Program-made: the position numbers and the translations under genes
Assembly (NCBI GenBank): GCA_010645155.1
Contig: JAAGOF010000323.1
Coordinates: 937,845 to 1,001,844 of the forward strand
Direction of reading: 5' to 3'
Origin: Tigriopus japonicus
Taxonomy: Eukaryota; Arthropoda; Copepoda; Harpacticoida; Harpacticidae
DNA length: 64,000 nt
Part shown: positions 6,798-51,466 of the stretch, piece after piece
Layout of the letters: each line of letters starts with the position of its first letter
Numbering within the stretch: the stretch's first letter is position 1
Notes under the pieces: generated by a model
Told to the model about the DNA's origin: nothing
The model's database searches: none
The model's input: the letters and a program-made list of their open reading frames with translations, nothing else

Positions 6798-9700
6798 CTG
6801 CAATGGAAAAGGAAGAGATCTGGTGAATTTCATTGCAAAACAAAGTACATCCCATGAATCTGAAGGCTGAAGCCTTCAATTAGCACAAGAGAAGGACATT
6901 GAAATTTAATTGAACAAAAATATGCAAAATAGGAATCCGTGCTGAACATATTAGGACTCAAAACCTTCTACCGACTTATCCATAACCGATGCTTTAGCAA
7001 TTTCCGCGCACGAAAAGGATATTCCAATTTCATTGAAGTAACACTTTCATTTGGGAAAACTATTTTTTCTTGTTGTTCAGACATGCATTTTTTCAAGACT
7101 TTGGTTGATCCGACTTGAAAACACGTCGCCACGGGTTTTAACAGTGATAGAGAGAAAAAGCCACATAAAACGACAGTACAATATTTAGATCAAGTAATAA
7201 CAGGAAAACCCGCAAATTTGAAAAATAAAAGGTCAAAAAACCCCGTGCTTTTTGCTCATACATACAGCGGAAGAATGCTCTAGAAATGACATTTTTGATC
7301 CATTGCTTGTTCATTCCTATTTATTTCTTACTTTTTTCATTTTTACGATCGCGTTTTTCTCTTCGTCACGGTTTTATTTAACCAAATTGCTTTGAGTTTT
7401 TCCTTCGTTTTACTTTTCATTTTGTTCTCTCCTCTTTCAGGCTTTACCCTTTTTACATTGCGTTTTTTGAGTGGCTCCCAGAAATAATAAAAATTACACT
7501 AAGCAAAACATTATCATTTTTAACTTGATTAAAATTCTTCTATTTCCTCGTTCCGCCCTTTAGCCATTTACATTTTAAATCAAAAAATACTCCTTAACTC
7601 ACATCTAAATAGACGTATCAAAATTTACGAACATGGGAGTGATCACCGTATCATTTTACGGAATTGCTGCCGTTAGCAGTGTAGGCTTGCCAAAAAAAAT
7701 CTCAGTTTTCGGTCTGATTTTCGAAAAATGTTGCATTTATGGACAATGGCATGTTTGAGAAGTATTGCAACGTAATTTGAAAACAAACGGAGAAATTGGA
7801 AGCCTTCAATTTAACAAATTATTTGTTTTTATGTTTAGTTGCCCTAGGAACCGATCTCCTCTGGCCATCTTGTTATTCAAAGTCGGGCATTCCTCATTTC
7901 AAAGTTCGGAAGAACCCTCTCAACTTATGTTGCGAAATTTTAGATAAAAGTAATAAAACATATTTTTTTGCTAAAACAATGTCAAGAATTGCTATTTCAA
8001 CTTCAAGTTGTGCAGATAAAAAAGGCATTGTTGCAATCACTAGGCCTAAACCTTCATTTTAGTTACCTCGCACGTTCATCAGAAACACAGGTCTTCCGAA
8101 CTTTTTCTCCCGCCAAAAATGATGACGTCACTAGTAATTGCTGTAATTAATAATCGTCTCACCTAAGGTAACTAAAGCTGATGCCACAGCGATACCCGTG
8201 TAGCCTGGCGGAGCATAGGGTTGACCTCCCGTGGGCAACCTCACCACCAACGAGAGCACAGCAGCTCGGTTGTCTTCGCACGGCTCTAATGCAATTGGAC
8301 TTGGACGGTAGGATTTCCGCTTCCGCTTCCTCACCTGACCCCCACCGGTTCCTCCACTCGTTTGGTCAACTCCCGTGCCGGGATTCGAACCCCCAGACTG
8401 CTGCTGTTCACCACTGGGAATGCTGACTGGGATGAGATTTGAGCTCATAGTGAGGGAAGGAGCCGATGCGGAATTGCCCGTGAGACTTGAGCTGGACTTG
8501 ACGGCGTCCGGAGGGATGGGTTCCAGTTCCACGAGGACGGAACCAAACGGTCGACTTGCCATCTGTTCCATCTCCACGAAGAGTCGTTGCCGTCGACGGT
8601 ATCTGTCATACCTTTGTTTGATTTTCCAAAGCACCGCAGCCACCAGAAGAAGTGCCAGAAAGCAGCTACAAGAGGGAAGATATACATGTTTTATGCCAAG
8701 TTTACTTGAGATTTTCGGAGGAAGGGTTACCCGACGTCTAAGGGCTGCATTCCACATGTTTAGCACCAATTTATGATCAACTCTCACTCAAAATGTCTAC
8801 AACCTTCCCGGGGATTCGAGTCTCCCAAAATACCGATGATGCAAGTTTTTTTGCTGCTGATTTGGGGGAACAGTTTCTTTGTAGTAAAAGGTGGAACTGG
8901 GACAACCCAAATTCCAAGTTCTACTAAACGGAACATTTTCCAACAGCAACAATCTCAGCAACCTCTTTTATAGTTATTGCATCACTTCAGAAAAAGGTAC
9001 TTACGTGGAGAATGTTATGAAGAATTGAAGCAAATCTAACTTTGGATGCTGAGAGAACGATATGACGATCCATAAGGGCGGTTCGAAATCGTAAACATAC
9101 ACATAAAATGTCGTGTTGGAAGCATCGCCGAATGAAAAGTCTTCCTTAGCAAAGCGCTCTTTGAACGTGGAACAATTGACATCCGTGTAAAGTTGCTCTT
9201 CACGGATTTGCTTCCGATTTCCGGGAGCATGACGAAAAGTCAAGTTCATCTAAAAAGTAAAAGATCATACTTAGAGGAGGAAAACAAAATATAATTAACA
9301 TTTGATTACTATCATACCCGAGCAGGAACTGAGCAAGTGATGGAGAAATCCACGTCCACATCAGATTTGGTCGGATCGTTCTTGAAATTAATGGCGGTGA
9401 AATGGCGGTCATCCGATTTGGAGAGATTAAAAGTGAACTGATAATCAATGGTCAGATGATCTGAAAATGAAAACACGACATTGAAAGTAGTGTTATGAAG
9501 CCGTTCTAATGTCAACTTACAGAAACAGGAATCCTTGACAGGATCTCCGACATAGTGATTGTTTTTATCGCAAGACTCGCAATGATCTCCAATGATTCCT
9601 TTGGTAGTGCAATGACACTTTCCAGTCTCGTGATTACAAGCTGAAGCTTGACCGTTGCACTGGCAGGCTAAAGCAAAATAAATATTATATATATCAATCA

Positions 9701-12700
9701 TCCCTCATTAAGTTCGTATTAGCTTCGGAACTTACCTTGACAACTACCCCCATTCACAGCATCACCAAAGTAACCTTTGGAGCATCTCTCGCAATGATCT
9801 CCGTCGGTGAAGCCCTCGCAAGGTTTGTCACAGGTGGATTTCTCCATCGTGCAAGAACTGTGTCCGTTACACTCGCAATCCGGACAAGTGGTGAAATGCC
9901 AACTCTTGCCATCACTCTGTGGACATTGATCATCGGGCACCCATGCATAGTGTCCATGACCCCCTTGATTGACTCTTTTGAGGGGACTGGCTGCTCCTCC
10001 CACCATGCAAGTGCCCAAACCAGTGAGAGACCCATCGTCACACCAACCACAACTTGGATTGGAGCGACAGGACTTGCAAGTCCGGTATCCAACACAGATA
10101 TCATCGGGCACGGTTTCTGGAACATGATTTGGATTTGACACATTGTTTCAATGATTTAGGTTCCAATTTAGTCGGGAGGTTATTCCATGAAAAATTTGAT
10201 TTTTTTCAAGATGAAAATGGGAAATTGATGTTTTTCAAAGTTTGTGTTCTTTCTCACTTTACCAATATCATCTGTTTTAATTTTTGATTTTCCTATAATT
10301 TTCTAACAATTGCGTCTCGAAAACTGTAATGCACTCCTTCTAAACTTTAATCATCCTTGTCATTGGCACATCGACGTACCTACGAGGATTCGAAAAACGC
10401 GAAAATTGGACTGCAAAATCTCACAAAACCTTTGCGTGAAAATCCCTCGACTCCCATTAATACGAGGTAAGCGAAAAAGTTGATCTTCAAAGTGCCTTAC
10501 CATTTTTGCTCGGAACCGGGCATTCGTCTTTTTCCGTGGTCCAATCCATACATTGGCCGTATGGAAACGATGCCAAGTAAGCGTTCCGGTCAATACACAT
10601 GTGAAGGTTCTTGCACCACATGCAAAGACCATGAGTACAATTCATGCAATTGGTACGCTCACTGCAAGCCGCAGGACAAGCATTGCCTGAAACGAACAAG
10701 AATTAGGGAAGTCAATCAATTTGATATGGCAGGATTGGAACTTGAGCAACACTTCTTTTGATGATCAGATTGGTCTATTTCAACATGATACAGGGATAAT
10801 GAGAGATGATCTTCGTGGGCGGCACAACAGGGGTCGATGGACTCGGTCACGGGTTCTTGGATATTGAAAACGAAATGCCCAATGATGATACCGAAAATAG
10901 TACACAAGAACAATTCCAAGGAGTAGGTCATGACGACCAACATGGCTAGATAACCCAAAAACAGATTGACCCCAAAGCACCCGATCATGCAAAGCTTTCG
11001 ATATTTGCCATGGACTTTGCGAGAAACACGGCGTCTGAGATAGATCATGAATTCAATTAGAAATCCCAGAAACATCGTGACCAAACATCCGCAGGCAAAT
11101 TTCCACCGAGTGTTCAAGGTCCAATAGCGGATGAAGAGAATGATGCAAAATCCGTTGTTCCCTGAGGCCTCGAAGCCTCCCATAAGCATATCTGTGGCTC
11201 CTCGACAGAATAAATCCTCGTTTGGAACATTTTGTTTGAGTTTGACAGCCTTGGAACATTCCCAATGACAAGAGGGGTTCATGGAATCGGCGAAACATGG
11301 ATCTTGAGCGGCAGTCACACACGTGAGGTTGTCCTCAGTGGAATCACAATCGTCTGGAACACTCAAGCAACCCATCCAACAATAAGCTGAGCCTTCTTCA
11401 CACGATTGTTCCATGACGCGGGTCCAGTTGTCAAAGACAGTTTCAGTTTCTGACGAAAACATCTTTCTACTTGAATCGGGAACGGTTCTCTTGAATACCT
11501 GATCAAAGGTTAGAAACTTTTGGGAACGATCTCCAACCGGCAAAATGGGGATGGCTTCATTGGGAACAACTTTCATTCGGGCATAAACCGTTCTATTTTT
11601 TATTCTTGGATCCATAGATGGAACTGCATGAGGGGTGGCCCAAAAGTCCGGGTGTTCCACGCCTTGAAATAACCAATCCGTGGTTCCCAGTCCCATTAGA
11701 ACTAAAATCGTGGATGGCACCAAGTGTTTCGTGGAAATCGTGTTCCCATTTTCGAGCTTTATTGTTAAAGGGTGATCCGGAAACGGCGTCAAAATGAGAA
11801 AGAGCCCATTATCTCGATGAAATGGCACCATAAAACTCTTGGAGTCCCTTTCTGGGCCGAAACGATGATGATACACATTGACGTGATCTTTGCGAGGAGC
11901 ATCACTCAAATTGAAGGCCTTCTCACCAACTTGATATTGAAATGGGCGATCATCTCCTCCTTGGATCAATTTAACCACTTCCAATTCGATCTGGTCAAAG
12001 ACATTGGACAAATGATGCATCGGCAATGAAATGCAATCCGGATACTCTCTTTCCTCGGTGGCAAAAATTTGACGAGTAGCTCCATCCAACATTTGAACTT
12101 CCGACAAGCCTTTGATTCCACGAAAACATCTTGGAGCACTTGCTTTCAAGTCATTCATAGAATTCTGAACGCCTTCTTGCTCTTCGAAGCGAACCCCAAA
12201 ACAAGATATTTTCTTACTGGGGTCGATCCTTAAAAGATCCGAAGATTTCTCACCCTTGACGATCAATTTCAAGTCATTGAAGGTCACTTCTGGAATCTTG
12301 GGTGGAACACGTATCCCTTGTAATTGAGAGCTCGTAAATAAAACAAGGAGAACACACAAGAAAGTCTTCATCATGAAAGAGTTATTTTAACTTTGTTTGC
12401 TTCGAGGACTGAAATCACGGCATGCTTTGGCATTAATCAAGACACTTCCTGTGGACTTTCCTAGATTACCCCAAGAATGATATTGAATGAGAAAATGAGA
12501 AGCGACGATTATTACCGCAAACTAGTTTCCAAGATTCCAAATTCATCCGTCGAACATAGATTACCCCCGGCAAACATGGGGTTCCATGTATGTCGTTTTA
12601 GTGAGAAATTCGTTACCCCTCTGTGTCAACAGTGTTATCGGGATTTTCTCTTCTAGTACTGTAATCTTACCTGATTCTTCGGTGAGATTCACGTTGGCCG

Positions 12701-15700
12701 TCTTTCTTCTCGTTTCGCGACATTTGCTCACTTTGGCCGATTCCCAAGTGCATCCGGATCTCGGAGAACACGAATGACAAGAGTGAAGAGCCCCACACCA
12801 TTCTTTGGGCGTGGCTCCTAAACCCGCCTCCACACATTCCTCAGTGCGTTGATAGGTTCTCTTCTCTTTCTCTTCACAAGCAGGACTCCATGTACAATGG
12901 TCATGACACCAAACACAATCTGATGTAGTCGATACACAAGCAGTACACGTGTCTAAAGACTGACACACGGACGTGTTGTTATTAGGAGCCTCGTGATTCA
13001 GACATGTCTCCATTCCTTGAGAAAGAAAGAAAAAAAGGTCGTGTTTAGATTTGTTTGAGAAAAAATTAGGTGCCAGAAATCTTGTTGACTTTCGAGTATG
13101 CAAATAGAGATTAGATCTGCATTCTGGGCAAAATTCAAATTGATTTGGCAGTTGCTCAATCACAAAAATGAGTAATTTGAAAAAGATGGGAATTCCACTC
13201 TTTAAATTCATTTGACTTTGAGTCCGAGCAGGGCTTGATAAAGCATATAAATGCTAATTTGGAAGAATGCATTTCTGATCTATTTTCGTTCAGTTGGTTA
13301 ATCTCTCTGATATTTGTGTAAGACGTGCAAAATGCTTTTTTTGCAAATTCCAACCTGGGAAATGAGATTTTTAAGGACTTTCCTGGAAGTGGAAAATCTT
13401 GAAAATTCTTAAGGCTTACCAGATTTTAGACGATTTGCAGGATGTCGGAGACACTGATCTCGTTTCGTGTCCCATACACATTTAACGCCAACTTTGCTCT
13501 TGAGGCAAGCGGCTCTGTTTTTGAACATGTTGCAATCCCCGGGATGAAAGGCAATCAAATCATTCTTCAACACCCCATGGAAGCCACCATGGATCAACAT
13601 GGTGTCATTCTTTAGAACCGTTGTATGACCATATCTAAAAAAAGAGTAGGAAAATACAAAACCATTCTACGTTGGTGCCATCCGTTCGTCTCTTACCGAG
13701 CCAAGTCCACGTCAAGGTTTTTGGGAATGGCATCTTGTGCATTGTGCCACTTATCACATACGATATCGTAGACTAGAAGATCAGCGGAGAAGCATTTGGC
13801 TCCGTGACTAAAGGAGGTGTCATTATGGGTGTTGCCACCAAAAACAATCATGAGACCATGTGAGGCCACCGCAGAATGAAGATAGCGATACGAGCCACTA
13901 AAACTATGTCGAGTCCTGCAAAAGTAATCGGTATTGAAAGCTAGCCTAATCATCATCCCAATGCTTGTCTGTCTCACCATGTCCTTGAGATTGGATCGAA
14001 GGAGAACAATTCATTAGTGATGACCGCCGAAGAAGCCAAATTGGAGACAAATCCGCCGTAGACGTAGATCTTGTTGGTGATCTCGTCCCAGACTGAACTA
14101 TGTCCCAAACCACCTCGAACAGGAAATCCAGATGTTGGCACAATACTCCATTCGTTGTTGCCTAAGAAAGGAATCCAATTCGTTTATGAATTGTACCGTG
14201 ATTTTTCGCCGCTCTTTAAGTGGAGATCGGAATCTTAGCTAATGAAAAATGGAAATAATGGCTAATTTTTGGTTGAAAACTCTTTCGAAAAAATGAGGGG
14301 ATCGTAGCCCTAAAAATGATTTTGCAGCAAGATTCATATGATGTTAAAATTCAATCTTTTCTGAGAGCCATGATTTCCCATTTAGGATTTTAAAGAAAAC
14401 TAACATTCGCTTCACCTAGATGGCTCTTGCATGATTTATCATGCCCTTAACCCATCCTACTAGAGTGCCCTCTCTTGTTCTCAAAATGAACAACTCGCCA
14501 TCAGCGCAAGCCTTCTTAAGGAAGCAAAGTTGAGCTTCAATCTCAGAGAAAAATGACAATCAGCGCCATCTTGAGAAGGAAACATTTGTGGGTGCTTCTG
14601 TAAAATATTTATACTCGATTTGTGATTACTCAGTGTGACTTTTTACTTTTTGAACACACTAATATCGTAGTAGCTGAAGAGAAATCCATTTTAAGATGGA
14701 AGCTGCAATTTTGGTAACAAATCAAAGTTGAGGATAGATCTGAAATCAAGGGACTTTGCCCCTGTTTTGCCTCCATCTAGTGGCGATTTTTGTAATTTTC
14801 AATTAACTTTCTTAACAGAATAATTTTAAAAATCTAAAAAACGAGGGAAAACCGAGAAGGTTTTTCTTCAAAGTTGGAAATAGTTTAATTGTTCCAAAAC
14901 AGTAAGCTACAGTAGTTTTGACCAATTAGTTTTTTAGTTCTAAAAATCATTTCAACTATATCCAACCAAATATCCATTCTCCTTACCAAAATGATATTCT
15001 TGAACAGTGTCGAGATATCCGTATTTTGGCGAATGCCCAAAGATGACAATCATTCTGTTGGAAACCACGGTTGCAGTGTGTCCCATACTATGAATGGGAC
15101 CACAGAGCTTGTGGTCTTCGTTGATCATACACTGACCACTCTCGGTTTCCACTCGATCCCAAGAGAGGAGATCTAGATCGAGTGCCCAAAGCTCTTTTGA
15201 GGTGTGCCCGGATCGCATGGTACCCCCGTACATATAAATCTGGAACACGACGAGAAAAGTTGGAACTTTCAATGCAGATCTCAAAGTTTAAAGTTCTACA
15301 GTTTGCCACGCTTCGGTTCTTCAAACAACTTGTTCTAACTCGAGAGGATTCAAATTTGATCCTCTGCTAACAAACAATTAGTTAAAAGCCGAAGCTTATA
15401 ATGCCCATACATTAAGAAAACTAAAGGGGATTTGCTTAAAGTACAAATTAAACTCTCATATTTTTGACGGAAAAGCCGAAGAAGCCCTACAATAATTGGC
15501 AGTTCCGTCAAAATGACGTCAAAAGCAATTTCGTCTTGCCACCGTCAATCTTAATGGGCTTCCAGAAATACTCGCAATGAAAAGCTCCATCCACCAACAC
15601 TAACAACAACAAAGGCGCGCAATGCTCTAACACGCCAAGCAAAAACCAACATGAGGCCATATTATTTCCATTCTAGCCTCATTTCCCATACTCATTCCTA

Positions 15701-18700
15701 TTACGATTTGAATGATGATCTCGGATCTTACACGGTAGAGGGTTGTTATAGTTTTAAAGCCCAAAAAAGCTTTACACTGGTGAATTGTAACAAGTGAGAT
15801 CCAACACCTAATTTGTGGTCCAAACTGGTGTTTACCTTATATTTTGTATTCGTTGTCTAAAGAATCCAAGCAAAATTTAGCCCACTAATGGGCACTCAAA
15901 GAACGGATTTTTTCGGAATAAACTTGCTTAACCCCAACAAGCAGAGTAAAACTATTTTTGAACCTCTGACAATTGCAACACCAAATTTCTGCATTGCTAG
16001 TCCAGCACATAACAGTGGGTGCTCTTGGGAGTATCATTCTTGTAAACAATCAAAGGTTCACAGATCAATCCGATTTTAGAAGAACCCGCTGTTACCCCAA
16101 ACTATTTTCCTCAGTAATATTTATACACCATAATTATCCATATCATGTATCAAAATTGATTCTTGGTTTGTCATTGCGACACTAATAATGGACAATCCTG
16201 AACCTTTACAGACAAGTATTATACTCAGAAGAGACAACACCCCCCATAAATCCCACCTTTCTCTCATGGATAACCGCCGAATGTCCGTATCGGAAGCTCG
16301 GACCTTTATTCGATTTGGCCTTCACTTCCTGCCAATTGGCTTGGGCCGCCGAGAGGTCATCCAGTCTGTCAATATCCAATTTCAAGACCATATGTCTGGG
16401 CTGATGGTCGAACGTCTCACCCCCAATCACCCACATTTGACCGAACTCATCGATCATGGAGGCGTGCGAAGTTCGAGCCACCGGAACCTCAGCCGAGGGG
16501 TCATCTCGGGTCAACACGCTCCAATAGCCGTTACTAACAGCTTGTGAGCACGATTCGCCCGTCCAACCACTGAAGCAATCGCATCGCTTCTTTCTTTTGT
16601 CACACACGCCATGAGGCACATTGTCCAATGAGGCGCAATTATTCGGACACGCCGGAATAGAACAGGCCGGCCCTTTGAAGTCCTCGTCACATCGACACTC
16701 GCCCGTGCTTTCATCACAAGAGCCGTTGCCTGAACAGGTCTGGTCATGACGTTCACTAGGACAGGCGTTCACACTGAAGGTGATGTTGAAGCCCGTCATG
16801 TTGTAGGCTACGTCTGAATAGAAATGGAGTAACATGGACCCGGAGGTCCCGATGAGCTCGGGCACGCGTTGGATTTGGTATCGATCATGTCGGACCATGC
16901 CCGAATAAACGGCTTTGAGATCGGAAAAGACCTGGAAGAGGGGGAAAAAATATGAGAAGGCGTATTTTGGTATATTCGATTTACGTAGAGTTATAGCTGA
17001 GAGTTTATTTTTAGACCATGATTTCGGAGAAAAGTGGTGGTTGGCGGGGTCATGATGGTGAAACGTTTGAAATTACGCCTCAAAGCTTTCGTGTACTGTA
17101 CAATATGCGAGTCAAAAGCCCAAGATGAGGATGAATACAAACGCCTAAAGACGTCTGCTCGTTTTTATTACCATTTTGGAACAAATAAACAACATTTAAA
17201 ACAATCCTACGAAACCCTTTTCTGAACATTCATCTGTCCAAAAGAGACGATTAGCAGAACACATCCAAGAACACGTGGCCATCAACAGACAAGAGCCTTA
17301 TTAACATGACATTGCCAACTTATTTTGGTTCATAACAAATCTTTGAAGGTACTGTATACCTGACATAAATTGCGTTTTTGGCAAAAACACCATCAAAAAC
17401 GAAAGAGCTGTTTTGCTCTGATACCGTTCGTCAGTTTAATGCAGTTGCTTGTTACGGCTTTTCCAGCAGAGAAAGATCACCCGCCTCTTGACTAAGAGTA
17501 CAAATGGGTTTTCGTAACTAGGGGTACGTATTATGAGTTTGGAAGTGAATCGGCGACTTTTCCTCCTACTAGTTCTGATCCGTTTCGAGGCCATCATCCT
17601 GGCTCAGACACACGGAGACCCAAAGAGATGAGGATTGAGGACACACTGCTCACCGAAGACGAAAGGCCTTGATGAAAAAGGGCTTTCCTTTTGGCTCTTT
17701 TTTAAGAGACTAAGAGAGAGAAGGAGAGCAGAGGTCACACATCTCGCCTGAAGGAGAGGCCTTTGTCAAGCCTTCAGATCCAATTTGCCTCACTTCATTG
17801 CTTACAACCTCTTAAAATTGTCGAAATGAAACCAAGTTTCCGACAAAAGAAATTTGTATAAGTTTGAAGCCCCGTCAGCCAATAGCTTTAAGATCAAAAA
17901 ACGACCATTGAATCGAAGTACGTACACTGCAATTAAGAGAGTGGTCCGATGTCTTTTCAGTAGTTGTGAAGATCAACAATCATTCTAAGATGTAGGTCAA
18001 TGATACGAGACGAACTAGAGAACAACGCTAGGAAATACAGTTGTAGGAATTACGTTGAATGGCTCAGTCCATCTAGGTTTGTCCGACTTTTGTTTCACAG
18101 ACAACTAACTACCTTGGTTCTTGATTGCCGTCGAGAACTTCATTCAAACTTACCGAGTCGCCATCAAAGATGTAGAGATGATCCCATCCGCACTCAGTGG
18201 CAAACTCTTTGATGTGAAGACGGATTTTGGCATTCTCGATGGGAGACTCGATGAGCCAGGTGCATTTGGAATCCACGGTATAATTTCCAATAGCATCCGC
18301 CAACCAACCTTTGGTACTATTCAATCTGGAAGACAATAAAGCCAGGCAAACGTTTCAGTATTTAATCAATCATTTTGGCTGGATATGCGAATGTGACATT
18401 TTGTAAAAAATCTTTTTTTTTGTTACAGAAGCCAATATCGAGCGGTTCGAGATACTGGTAGATTTGGCAATAAACTTTTCAATTAAAACCACATCGGGAA
18501 GAAAAAAATATATGTATTTGTTTACTTGAAAAACTAACCGTATGCTAGGGCAAGAACATCTAGAATAGAGAAATTCTAGATGTCCGTGGCTAGGGGTATG
18601 CAGAGTATGCGCAATCAGCATTAACAGAAATGAACATCCTCGATCACAATGGCTGCTTTGATCTACATTTTATCGTGTATGGATTACTTAAATATTTTCA

Positions 18701-26649: not shown

Positions 26650-27722
26650 ACATTTGGTTGATCAGTTAACGTGAGACCTTCTATCAAGTGTAGAGAGAAC
26701 CCGTCCCCGATTCAAGTGGAAAAAGGGTGTTTTCTCTGAAACTGAAAATGTATTTGACAACTGGACCCGTGTCATGGAACAATCATGTGAAAAAGGCTCA
26801 GCTTATTGTTGGATGGGTTGCTTAATTGTTCCAAACAATCGTGATTCCACTGAGGACAACCTCACATGTGTGACTGCTACTCAAATTCCATATTTCACCG
26901 ATAACATGAACTCCTATTGTCATTGGGAATGTTCCAAGACTATCAAACTCAAACTAAATGTTCCAAACGAGGATTTATTTTGTCGAGGAGCCACAGATAT
27001 GCTTATGGGAGGCTTCGAGGCCTCAGGGAACAACGGATTTTGCATCATTCTCTTCATCCGCTATTGGACCTTGAACACTCGGTGGAAATTTGCGTGCGGA
27101 TGTTTGGTCACGATTTTTTGGGCTTTCGAGTTCAATTCATGATTGTTGTATTCCCTCTTATGCTCATACTCTTATGCTCGTGCTTGGTCAAGTCACATAT
27201 ATATCCATGTATATATAACCCTCGCTCAATATGAATAAAGCATTTAGTCATCACCACCATACCACTCCATGAACATACAATGATCAATCCTAGACGCTGT
27301 GTTTCTCGCAAAGTCCATGGAAAATTTTCGAAAGCTTTGCATGATCGGTGCTTCGCGATCGATCTTTTTTTGGGTTATCTAGCCCAAGATATATATGTCG
27401 TCACTCCTGACTTACTCCTTGGAATTGTTCTTGCCTTCTATTTTTTGTATCATCCTTGGGCATTTCGTTTTCAATATCCAAGAACCCGTGACCGAGTCCA
27501 TCGACCTATGTTGAACCACTCAAGAAGTTCATCTCTCACTATCCCTGTATCAATCAATCAATCAAAAAAGCGTTGCTCAAGTTCCAAACCTTCCATATCA
27601 AAATTGACTGACTGCCCTAATTCCTCTACGTTTCAGACATTTCTTGTCCTGCGGTTAATAATGAGCGTTTATGAGGTAACCAAATGCATAAATAGTACTC
27701 TAGTTGCAATAGTTGCACTATA
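26650..27722 (+). pseudogene. Inverted partial copy of the nested dioxygenase-CTR gene
   Basis: Copy in opposite orientation of the 3' half of the gene at 10716-12374, from about the codons for residue 290 through the stop. It continues past the stop through the attractin intron end, the exon-9 splice acceptor (TTTCAG) and the first bases of exon 9. It was therefore made at the DNA level, not from mRNA. The dioxygenase domain is missing. The frame is open from 26774 through the first membrane helix, then breaks at TAG/TGA-type stops near 27140. About 141 bp of unrelated DNA, bounded by ATGAT (27139 and 27280), is inserted between the first helix and the RRR loop. Further shifts affect the later helices. 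Two linker Cys are replaced by Arg and Tyr. A partial transcript of the intact linker-helix part cannot be excluded. Confidence 0.88.
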
Positions 27723-33544: not shown

Positions 33545-34606
33545 CTTGCGATTCAAAGGCTCTTAACGAATCCCTTAAATGGTGAGGCGTGTGCACAGCG
33601 ATAGATTCCGCCGGAAAAGGAAGATCGTAAATATCAGCTGATTGTAATGCGAAAGAAAATGCGCAAAAATAAACATTGCCAAAAAAATATGCTTTACTCA
33701 TTCTTTTTAATATAGTAAAGAGGCGCTATTTCAAAAAAGCAAGGTTAGGAATTAAAACTCAAACATGAACGATCTAAAAAATGAGAATTTTTCTTTCGCC
33801 TGTTTTCACGCAACCTATTTTGTTATTTAACCTTTTGGGCCAACATTAAAAAACTTTTATCCAAACACCCTTATCGTTTATCTTTCAAAGAAGCATGACC
33901 CACCTTAGGGAACGCGCAATTTAGAGGTCGACCAACGGGTTTTAGCCGCATAATCAGGTAGAAGGTAAATATCATGACGTGTTGACAAAAATCCCTTTTC
34001 TTCACAGGATGAGCAACCTGAAATGCAATTTCTGGATTTTGTTTGTGTTAAAGCGTCATTTGACTTTTGACAAAAGTGAAATTAAGCGAGAAAACCGCCA
34101 ATAACAGAAACCAGGAAAGTTGAATTCAAAACTTAAGTCGTTGTTGAGATGATAGTGCTCTAATTAGAGCACTAGTTGAGATATCCTTAGAATACTTCAA
34201 AATCAAGCGTAATTCTGAATCGAGATTGTCAAGTTGGGTTGAAGTTGAGCTTTTTTTTCTCTGGGATTCCTAGAAAAAAAAGTCAAATTACTTTTTGTAG
34301 GGGATGGTTACGCAAAGTTCGCTTTGGTTTGTGGGTTCAATTTTAATATCTAATAAAAAATTGTCCCCCAATGGTGCTAAAAATCATGGGAATTTATTGA
34401 GATCAAGATTATCAATAGAATGGGGCTTTATTGATTATTAAACATGGTCACTCATCATTCTAAATGTGCCATTCTTTCATTTTTTCAAATCCCGCTTCAA
34501 TAATCATGAAATAACGGAGGCTTTGTCTTACATAAGATTACAAAAATTGCATTAAAATTCACTTTTGTTGAGTTATTTTGATTTGATTATCAAACGTTGA
34601 TTGTTT
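33545..34606. other. Divergent intergenic region between RPS23 and FDXR
   Basis: Both genes start outward from this segment of about 1.06 kb, so it must contain both promoters. No TATA box in a good position is evident for either. A 20-bp perfect palindrome inside it is listed separately. Confidence 0.6.
34154..34173. promoter_or_regulatory. 20-bp perfect palindrome with TAATTA core
   Basis: AGTGCTCTAATTAGAGCACT reads the same on both strands. It lies about 430-490 bp upstream of the FDXR start in the shared upstream region. The TAATTA core is a generic homeodomain site; a dimeric factor site is possible but untested. Confidence 0.4.
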
Positions 34607-34660
34607 ATGATTGGTTATCCTAGTCTTCATCAACAAAGATTTTTTCACATTTGCTCCAGC

Positions 34661-36106
34661 ATGTTCCGCTCATTTCTCGGTCTGCGATTGAGATCTCAGG
34701 CTCACCACTACGCCCTTCTTTCACGTTCCTATTCATCTTCTCCTCGTATTTGTGTGGTGGGATCGGGTCCAGCGGGTTTTTACACCACTCAGCATTTACT
34801 CAGTCATGGTCCACCTCAATTACGAGTGGATCTTTTGGAGCGATTGCCCGTTCCATTCGGTTTAGTCCGATTTGGCGTGGCTCCCGATCATCCCGAGGTA
34901 AAAAATGTGGACCATACCTTCACTAAAATTGCCAAAAACCCAAGGGTCAAGTTCTATGGGAATATCAATGTGGGTGTGGACGTGAAAGTCCGTGAGTTGC
35001 GCCAACTCTATGATATTGTCATATTGGCTTATGGTGCGGCTCAAGATCGAAAATTGGAAGTACCCGGCGAAGACCTCTCCAATGTGGTGTCAGCCCGAAG
35101 TTTTGTCGGGTTCTATAACGGGCTCCCCGAGGATTCGGGTCTAAAATTGAATTTGGACGTGGAAAATGCGGCTGTGATTGGTATTGGAAATGTGGCCTTA
35201 GATGTGGCTCGAGTCTTGCTTTCCCCGATTGATACCCTCAGAAAAACGGATATCACCGAAGCGGCTTTAGCTCAATTGGCGACTAGTCGGATAAAACGAG
35301 TGTTTGTGATTGGACGACGTGGGCCCTTACAAGTGTCCTTTACCATCAAAGAGCTCCGAGAAATGGTGAACCTCGAAGGATGCATACCCAAACTAAACCC
35401 GGATGATTTTCGGCCCATTCAGAGCATTGCTTCATCGTTGAAAAGACCTCGGAAGCGATTAACCGAGCTGATGGTGAAAACCGCCTTAGAACCTCCTAGT
35501 GAAAAACAACTCAAACTTTGGGGAAATGCTCAAAAGTCTTGGGAACTTCGATTATTACGTAGTCCTTTAGCCATATTGGGTCAAGATTCTCAAGTGTCAG
35601 CTCTTCAATTGGGTGTGAATCGGTTGGAGGGTCCTAATCTCACTGAAGACCAAAAGGTCGTGTCAACGGGTGAAACTGAAACTCTCGAGTGTGGTCTTGT
35701 TCTCCGAAGCATCGGTTACAAAAGTGTCAAAGTCGAGGACGGGATTCCGTTTGATGAGAAACGAGGAATTATTCCCAATACGAACGGCAAAGTTCGCGAT
35801 GAAATGGGACTTTATTGTTCAGGTTGGTTGGCCACGGGTCCCAAAGGAGTGATAGTGGACACCATGAATGAGTCCTTCCGTGTTGGTGCTCAAATCTTGG
35901 AGGACCTTCAACACGGAAATATCCCAGTAAGTGAAAATAGGACAGAAGAACTAAAGGCCGTTCTTGACCAACGGCAAGTGAAAGTGGTGGACTTTGTGGA
36001 TTGGGAAAAAATCGACGAGACTGAAAAGAAATGGGGTGCTTCTAAGGGAAAACCACGAGAGAAAATCACGGAAGTTCAGTCACTAATATCTACGGTAGAG
36101 CGGTAG
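34661..36106 (+). CDS. FDXR: NADPH:adrenodoxin oxidoreductase, mitochondrial
   Basis: FAD flavoenzyme of the mitochondrial matrix that passes electrons from NADPH to ferredoxin for Fe-S cluster and steroid/ecdysteroid P450 chemistry. Numbered from the ATG at 34661, the first 27 residues (MFRSFLGLRLRS..., basic and Ser-rich, no acids) form a mitochondrial targeting peptide. GSGPAG (34-39) is the FAD Rossmann motif. The family block FGVAPDHPEVKNV follows, then the NADP-binding GIGNVALDVARVLL with GxGxxA, then GWLATGPKGVI near the C-terminus. The length of 481 residues matches human FDXR (491). An in-frame ATG at 34607 would add 18 residues; I prefer 34661 for its targeting peptide. The gene is a single uninterrupted exon, whereas the vertebrate gene has many introns. 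No break is seen, so it looks functional. Confidence 0.96.
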   Translation: MFRSFLGLRLRSQAHHYALLSRSYSSSPRICVVGSGPAGFYTTQHLLSHGPPQLRVDLLERLPVPFGLVRFGVAPDHPEVKNVDHTFTKIAKNPRVKFYGNINVGVDVKVRELRQLYDIVILAYGAAQDRKLEVPGEDLSNVVSARSFVGFYNGLPEDSGLKLNLDVENAAVIGIGNVALDVARVLLSPIDTLRKTDITEAALAQLATSRIKRVFVIGRRGPLQVSFTIKELREMVNLEGCIPKLNPDDFRPIQSIASSLKRPRKRLTELMVKTALEPPSEKQLKLWGNAQKSWELRLLRSPLAILGQDSQVSALQLGVNRLEGPNLTEDQKVVSTGETETLECGLVLRSIGYKSVKVEDGIPFDEKRGIIPNTNGKVRDEMGLYCSGWLATGPKGVIVDTMNESFRVGAQILEDLQHGNIPVSENRTEELKAVLDQRQVKVVDFVDWEKIDETEKKWGASKGKPREKITEVQSLISTVER

Positions 36107-50212: not shown

Positions 50213-51466
50213 TCATTGACATTGAAAGTTGGAAGCACCTTTGACCGTAAGATATCCATCCGAGAAAACTTCGCTCTTGTTAGCCACATTCAAAGCCAGA
50301 GCCATCAATTTTTCAGCCGCCAAAGGATGCCAATCTCCAATAGTACAACCCAGATTCTCTTCCTCATCGTAATAATGGCACTTCTTTGTCAATCTCATTG
50401 AAGGCATATACTCGTAAATGTGGATTATACGACAATGCCTCAAGGCCAATATCAGGCCCAAAAATCCGGAAGAAGGTGGATTAGGAAGCAGAGGGAAACG
50501 GTTGTACGATTGGAGCCAATTCCAAATGGACCACAGAGACTCGGGTCGAAGCAGATACAACTCCTCATTCGGTCTCATAAGTCGCTTTGAGAAGAAGGTT
50601 TCGAAGAACGGATAGTCCGGATTGGTGTACCATTGAGCCGTTGTGGAGTTGTAACCAGACGGATCCCACACCAAGACCGGTGCTTTGGAATACATCTTGG
50701 TTTTGGACTCGAGGAATCGGAATTCAGGCTTGCCAACCACCTGACTATTGACAATTCTGAGCGAGGTCTTCGATCCCACATCTTTCTCATAACCAATCAC
50801 AGGTGCGTTATTGAAACGTATGATGAAATCGTTTCGATCGATTCTGGCGCCCAATCCGGATTTGGATAATGACCCCGAACTCGATACGACTCCACAAGAG
50901 TCAAAGGTCTTGCCTTCAAAGATCTGCTTGTCCATAAAATAGCGATCTAGTTCCTGAGTTCGGAAGAACGGGTCGCCTTTGACAAAAGTGGCCAATTTGG
51001 CTCGTTTCATGGCCGAGCACACCAATTTCTCAGGAGGATCTTTGGGCTGCATCTCAAAGGTCCTGGATCCATTGTAGTTCACTCGATAAGAGTTCTTGAT
51101 CTCGCCCGCGTCAAAGCTCTTGCCAGTATCTGTCACAGCATTTCTCAATTGACTCACGATTTGTTTTTCATAATGACTAACATGTTCCATCAATTTGTCA
51201 TTGGGAATCTGAAGATCCGGCTCTTTGGGTTTGACTTCTGAATCTTGGCTATTGAGATGAATGGGGTGGTTATTGACGACAAATGAATTGGTCGTTTCAT
51301 CGAAATGGATTCCGACCACAGGCCCCGCATTTCGGGAACGATATGCGTTCTTCTGAAGCTTCTCAATCCGGATCCAGTAATGTTTCCACAGGATATAAAC
51401 ATACGCCAATGAGCCGGTACAAAGTAGAATGAGGAACACACACAATAAACTTGCCAGAATCTTCAT
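50213..51466 (-). CDS. Sialyltransferase, GT29 family (ST6Gal-like)
   Basis: Golgi type II membrane enzyme that transfers sialic acid from CMP-sialic acid to glycan ends. It is one uninterrupted 417-residue frame. Residues 1-7 are cytoplasmic, 8-27 the signal anchor (SLLCVFLILLCTGSLAYVYI), then a stem. Sialylmotif L spans about 190-240 (CGVVSSSGSL...GARIDRNDFIIRFNNAPV). Motif S is about 329-352 (PPSSGFLGL...RHC), motif III is HYYD (364-367) and motif VS is HPLAAE (380-385), so all four catalytic motifs are present. Cys191 and Cys345 fit the conserved disulfide. Motif L spacing and the RIVNSQV segment resemble the beta-galactoside alpha-2,6 group. The start ATG lies 69 bp after the mL43 stop on the same strand. 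Protostome sialyltransferases are sparse, usually one gene per genome. Confidence 0.94.
   Translation of the reverse strand: MKILASLLCVFLILLCTGSLAYVYILWKHYWIRIEKLQKNAYRSRNAGPVVGIHFDETTNSFVVNNHPIHLNSQDSEVKPKEPDLQIPNDKLMEHVSHYEKQIVSQLRNAVTDTGKSFDAGEIKNSYRVNYNGSRTFEMQPKDPPEKLVCSAMKRAKLATFVKGDPFFRTQELDRYFMDKQIFEGKTFDSCGVVSSSGSLSKSGLGARIDRNDFIIRFNNAPVIGYEKDVGSKTSLRIVNSQVVGKPEFRFLESKTKMYSKAPVLVWDPSGYNSTTAQWYTNPDYPFFETFFSKRLMRPNEELYLLRPESLWSIWNWLQSYNRFPLLPNPPSSGFLGLILALRHCRIIHIYEYMPSMRLTKKCHYYDEEENLGCTIGDWHPLAAEKLMALALNVANKSEVFSDGYLTVKGASNFQCQ

Follow-up and report, generated by a model that had tools for sequence, protein, structure and literature searches.

Copper transporters of the CTR/SLC31 family (PF04145; salmon Ctr1, 6m97) are built of three transmembrane helices (TM1 to TM3) with an MxxxM motif, a GxxxG motif and a methionine motif ahead of TM1; their ectodomain is a short Met/His tail, and ordinary CTR1 has an HCH tail. 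The reduction of Cu(II) before uptake by CTR1 is called unclear in the abstract of PMC8867124. IPNS-like and plant 2-oxoglutarate (2OG) oxygenases (DAO, 6kun; GA2ox3, 6ku3; IPNS; DAOCS) have a double-stranded beta-helix of a characteristic type, the HxD...H iron ligands and an Arg within an RxS motif. In ctenophores, IPNS homologues ending in FYY have been proposed to make coelenterazine (Francis et al. 2015, PMC4488382), those of Mnemiopsis having a predicted signal peptide. Here we describe a gene of the copepod Tigriopus japonicus whose product joins a predicted IPNS-like head to a CTR membrane domain. The window, the whole stretch of 64,000 nucleotides that was analysed, corresponds to C27:937845-1001844 (contig JAAGOF010000323.1) of a 194.85-Mb assembly, which was also the genome searched. 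The gene occupies 10716..12374 of the window on the minus strand, as do all the protein features whose positions follow.

The reading frame runs unbroken from ATG to stop over 552 residues in a single exon, with no splicing needed. An earlier note on this DNA had placed an intact 552-residue frame at exactly these coordinates; it did not state the strand, which is found here to be the minus strand, the plus-strand reading being full of stops. Randomising the window 40 times with an order-1 Markov model gave a longest ATG frame of 227 residues (median 153), and the best relatives match the window protein to E 5e-184, so a frame of 552 residues is far from chance.

By the tests passed, the C-terminal part is a CTR copper transporter and presumably carries Cu(I). 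The Ctr profile check proposed in the earlier note gave a PF04145 score of 40.4 bits against a curated cut-off of 25.3, and the model of this part has the three-helix Ctr1 fold (residues 423-504, 10863..11108). The MxxxM selectivity motif of TM2 (M478 and M482; residues 478-482, 10929..10943) and the GxxxG packing motif of TM3 (G495 and G499; residues 495-499, 10878..10892) were found as had been described. Ahead of TM1 stands a DMLM methionine motif (residues 395-398, 11181..11192), which belongs to a DMxMxGF pattern present in 22/22 CTR-bearing rows; the paralogue L003 has MGMLM at this place. Two features set the protein apart from CTR/SLC31. Near its C-terminus a DPCC motif (residues 514-517, 10824..10835; 22/22 rows) replaces the HCH tail of ordinary CTR1, and its ectodomain extends over about 400 residues, made up of an oxygenase fold and a Cys-rich linker. 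This linker (residues 325-390, 11205..11402) contains nine Cys, including those of a CWMxC motif, which are invariant in the 22 rows of alignment A4. Ten linker Cys had been counted before; nine of them lie within these limits, while the tenth (C410) falls at the start of the CTR part. No listed fold match to a model of linker and CTR part covered the linker, an absence that is no evidence of a new fold.

The protein begins with a probable signal peptide (residues 1-20, 12315..12374), read by eye in agreement with the earlier proposal from the hydrophobic residues 2-17, which form a helix in the AlphaFold2 model. The IPNS-like 2OG-Fe(II) oxygenase-fold ectodomain, or head, follows at residues 25-300 (11475..12302). 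The prediction arranges eight strands in the order of a double-stranded beta-helix (pLDDT of the block mostly 85-97), the very fold whose lack, according to the earlier note, would undo the fusion claim. The 50 best PDB fold matches listed for the head were all 2OG/IPNS-type oxygenases. Conservation was counted over 79 of 99 proteins, after dropping 11 short fragments and nine named ids (P0002 included). His and Asp of the HxD iron-ligand motif (residues 186-188, 11811..11819) are each present in 79/79 rows and the distal ligand His249 (11628..11630) in 78/78 covered rows, with one gap; in a profile-profile comparison these ligands align to the HSD and to the histidine of the HRV of canonical 2OG enzymes. 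Arg261 (11592..11594), at the place of the Arg that binds the co-substrate carboxylate, is kept in 77/77 covered rows, with two gaps. These residues had been assigned the same positions previously, and they are also invariant in the 28-row alignment A1. Y168 (79/79 rows), and K162 and H164 (78/79 rows each), are further conserved head residues. Proteins annotated as IPNS-like ranked first against the head in a viral fold library, which we read as a shared predicted fold only.

The same architecture was sought elsewhere, and it recurs. A homologue search returned 28 proteins from 4333 candidates, 22 of them with a precomputed PF04145 assignment; this number includes P0002, which is identical to the window protein and comes from another source collection, perhaps from the same species. 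A profile search returned 29 proteins, and a head-only profile reached 77 at E <= 1. Among 21 further proteins with CTR motifs, 20 carry at least part of the head, and the remaining one (P0030) begins only within the linker. In three transcriptome proteins whose label is that of a complete open reading frame (P0018, P0020 and P0021) both halves are present unsplit, which does not fit the split transcripts that had been named as a possible refutation, and a second Tigriopus protein adds to these cases. Relatives that could be named are P0003 and P0005 of Tigriopus californicus and P0024 of the salmon louse, Lepeophtheirus salmonis; P0020 and P0021 are transcripts that we take to be calanoid, and the GFUD01 transcriptome is presumably calanoid too. 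With few sources named, our reading is that the relatives are all copepods. Among the papers listed by searches of open-access journals, none dealt with this architecture or with a copepod IPNS-type copper protein, which agrees with the earlier note, whose author knew of no such described protein. The enzyme-transporter architecture is thus real, recurrent in relatives and, so far as this literature search shows, undescribed.

The T. japonicus genome itself holds three intact single-frame fusions, namely the window gene, L002 (536 residues) and L003 (571 residues). Beside them it encodes ordinary CTRs, at least two in number, whose ectodomains are short and rich in Met and His: L009 (C7:3972274) and L010 (C27:743072), the latter sharing a contig with the fusion gene at a distance of about 200 kb. 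The ordinary CTRs of this genome end in HCH or HCS. As both kinds coexist in one genome, the fusion is an addition to the ordinary CTR and not a replacement of it. Two more CTR matches are partial (L011, C7:6747941; L015, C40:112702, which has stops).

Several results weigh against this assignment of the head and of the fusion. Over the whole core the profile-profile alignment was weaker, with a global probability of 38%, or 9% with three pieces, and R261 was aligned to the Arg of RQS in global mode only. The serine of RxS is missing, as the window protein reads R-T-V and residue 263 is Val in 75 rows, Ile in one and Ala in one (gap in two). The profile search of the head that the earlier note had proposed did not succeed: no 2OG Pfam model was reached by the window protein, 10 relatives, or 13 or 39 head sequences, nor was any NCBIfam 2OG model by the 5 and 39 sequences tested. 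A phmmer search of PDB reached no 2OG sequence, its best match (E 0.28) being Ctr1, through the CTR part, and PDB profile searches with head sequences returned nothing. As to the fusion, the T. californicus protein P0003 (LOC131880360), the nearest orthologue (68% over 72% of the query), is annotated with 396 residues and ends at DMLM without a CTR domain, and the gene model of P0024, from the salmon louse, breaks off within the CTR part; these shortened ends are due either to gene-model error or to real loss. A PHROGs search with the head also gave nothing. As the Pfam route failed, the oxygenase claim rests on the predicted fold together with the weaker profile-profile comparison. Its predicted fold and its ligands make the head IPNS-like, but by test it does not belong to PF03171; it represents a new oxygenase branch, a marine-crustacean family missed by the profile libraries used here. 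It further differs from IPNS-like and plant enzymes in being apparently secreted and tethered to a channel. We hold the fold and the fusion of the window protein with high confidence.

No relative appeared when prokaryote contigs were searched with the head profile A3 or viral contigs with A1, by methods that reach close relatives only; within that reach, this argues against contamination. One archaeal locus, obtained by scanning with a canonical 2OG piece, was not used.

In the model that we favour, and consider more likely than not, a non-haem iron oxygenase on the secretory side is tethered to the membrane and sits where a Cu(I) channel opens, so that oxidation would be coupled to copper entry. 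The fusion protein would enter the secretory pathway with its head facing the lumen or the outside, held by a linker that is probably disulfide-bonded. CTR proteins work as trimers; three heads would therefore ring the mouth of a trimeric channel. The head would use Fe(II), O2 and probably 2-oxoglutarate to oxidise a substrate at the pore opening, either a small molecule or a peptide. The likeliest substrate would be a copper ligand or a molecule that governs the redox state of copper, since this offers the simplest reason to tether an oxygenase to a Cu(I) channel. That the head is an active oxygenase is probable, because the metal ligands and the Arg are fully kept through the rows examined; its direct coupling to copper entry is a more tentative proposal, which we would put at somewhat under even chances. 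If correct, copper uptake and an oxidation reaction could be coupled at the cell surface, and a CTR carrying a redox-type enzyme head in cis would amount to a natural experiment on the reduction of Cu(II) before uptake.

The strongest competitor, which we nevertheless judge unlikely, is that the head acts as a non-catalytic metal-binding receptor, with a 2-His-1-Asp pocket that would capture or sense copper or iron and hand it over to the channel or gate it. Its fusion to a metal channel and the missing serine of RxS are in line with such a role, and the human CTR1 ectodomain binds copper, according to the abstract of PMC8867124. R261 and all ligands are, however, retained in every covered row, CTR-less relatives included, and as these have no channel to feed, catalysis accounts for the pattern better than metal handover. 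Less likely still is a precursor from which the head is cut off and secreted, so that head and channel act apart. CTR-less, apparently secreted relatives exist, and between head and linker a low-confidence stretch of the model (residues 297-315) is accompanied in the window protein by basic pairs, KR at 295 and RK at 303; on the other side, the invariance of the nine linker Cys is as expected if the linker joins the parts. A gene-prediction or assembly artefact, or a dead copy, is very improbable and already contradicted, since despite the unusual position of the gene inside an intron (see below) and the T. californicus annotation, there is one open frame that needs no splice, an identical protein in another source collection, two intact paralogues and at least part of the head in 20/21 further CTR-motif proteins.

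In a quick tree of 79 rows, with several long branches, 15 CTR-less rows form a set (SH-aLRT 99) that includes all nine rows of odd composition. It sits within a set of 25 (SH-aLRT 99) together with three CTR-bearing proteins, P0017, P0020 and P0021. CWPHT occurs in 11/15 of the CTR-less rows; ten end in CWPHT[EQ]KC behind a basic pair, and in P0066 CWPHT is present and the sequence then runs into another Cys-rich stretch. The branch with this ending was noted for P0068, P0070, P0075-P0080, P0083, P0085 and P0097; the octapeptide may be what is left of the CWMxC linker, or else a cyclic peptide that is released.

The other four of the 15 rows make up the P0071 group, in which three end in KKRAFLLNFYY and P0073 is cut short. 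These three (P0071, P0087 and P0092) are CTR-less with a signal-like N-terminus; being near-copies they were counted as one clade, and only P0071 is full, parts of the head being absent from P0087 and P0092 (in P0092, the part with R261). An FYY C-terminus was found in 4/99 proteins, these three and P0061, all CTR-less as sequenced; the ending of P0061 may come from an exon edge read into an intron. Given the composition of the family, the probability of FYY at any one C-terminus is 2.4e-5, a figure for a feature noticed after the fact, and chance was set aside as an unlikely source. The idea that relatives ending in SCG or TCG (12) and in CK or ECV (nine, eight in the tree) are CTR-less enzymes was dropped, because their endings look like a phase-2 exon edge (GG/GTAA, AA/GTAA) continued into an intron.

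The likeness to the ctenophore proteins is that both are animal oxygenases of the IPNS kind and apparently secreted, and that a CTR-less branch of the family described here also ends in FYY. Compared by the motifs given in PMC4488382, the window protein lacks RELEHXD and GAIELFYY; it has no FYY tail and ends in PAISN. Tessler et al. 2018 (PMC6140675) report that the copepod Metridia lucens makes coelenterazine, with no clear molecular path, and that no FYY oxidoreductase was retained, along with three FYY-ending transcripts without a clear match. Since no 2OG profile recognises P0071-like proteins here, we infer that such proteins could have been missed in that study. By analogy, P0071, P0087 and P0092 are possible luciferin-synthesis candidates, a lead and not a result, and the CTR-less FYY branch gives copepod coelenterazine synthesis a concrete candidate. 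A secreted copepod IPNS-fold family put to two uses, one CTR-tethered and oxidising a copper ligand to feed the pore, the other CTR-less and making coelenterazine from its own FYY tail, carried behind a basic site, as proposed for the ctenophore proteins, is an improbable extension.

The fusion gene is nested within an intron of an attractin-like gene (10687..12670), both on the minus strand; its donor (CAG/GTAAG) and acceptor (TTTCAG/G) were read by eye. In a domain-model scan of seven flanking pieces, 9315-9701, 9722-10141, 10493-10687, 14955-15284 and 16209-16898 matched attractin GBD, attractin EGF, PSI, attractin beta-propeller and EGF models, 12564-13211 matched no domain model and 8134-8787 only a sub-threshold one. 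The fusion stop lies 29 bases short of the next attractin exon, with no AATAAA or ATTAAA between them. As the nearest downstream words of this kind, at 10351 and 10281, lie beyond that exon, the 3' end of the fusion gene probably overlaps the host gene. Just upstream of the fusion ATG, a TTTCAG could be the acceptor for a 5' untranslated exon.

On the plus strand, a degenerate partial copy of linker and CTR part, with stops, lies at 26696..27600 (80% and 61% pieces). Besides this degenerate 3' half of the fusion gene, the region 26696-27660 takes in what looks by eye like the beginning of the following attractin exon, and represents an inverted segmental duplication at a distance of about 15 kb. 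Elsewhere in the genome, L005 (C18:685631-686662) matches residues 52-374 at 31% with two stops and is a head-domain relative that is divergent, intron-bearing or dead. Two other long single frames were seen by eye in the window, one with the look of an adrenodoxin-reductase-type enzyme (34601-36106, plus strand) and one resembling a sialyltransferase (50213-51466, minus strand).
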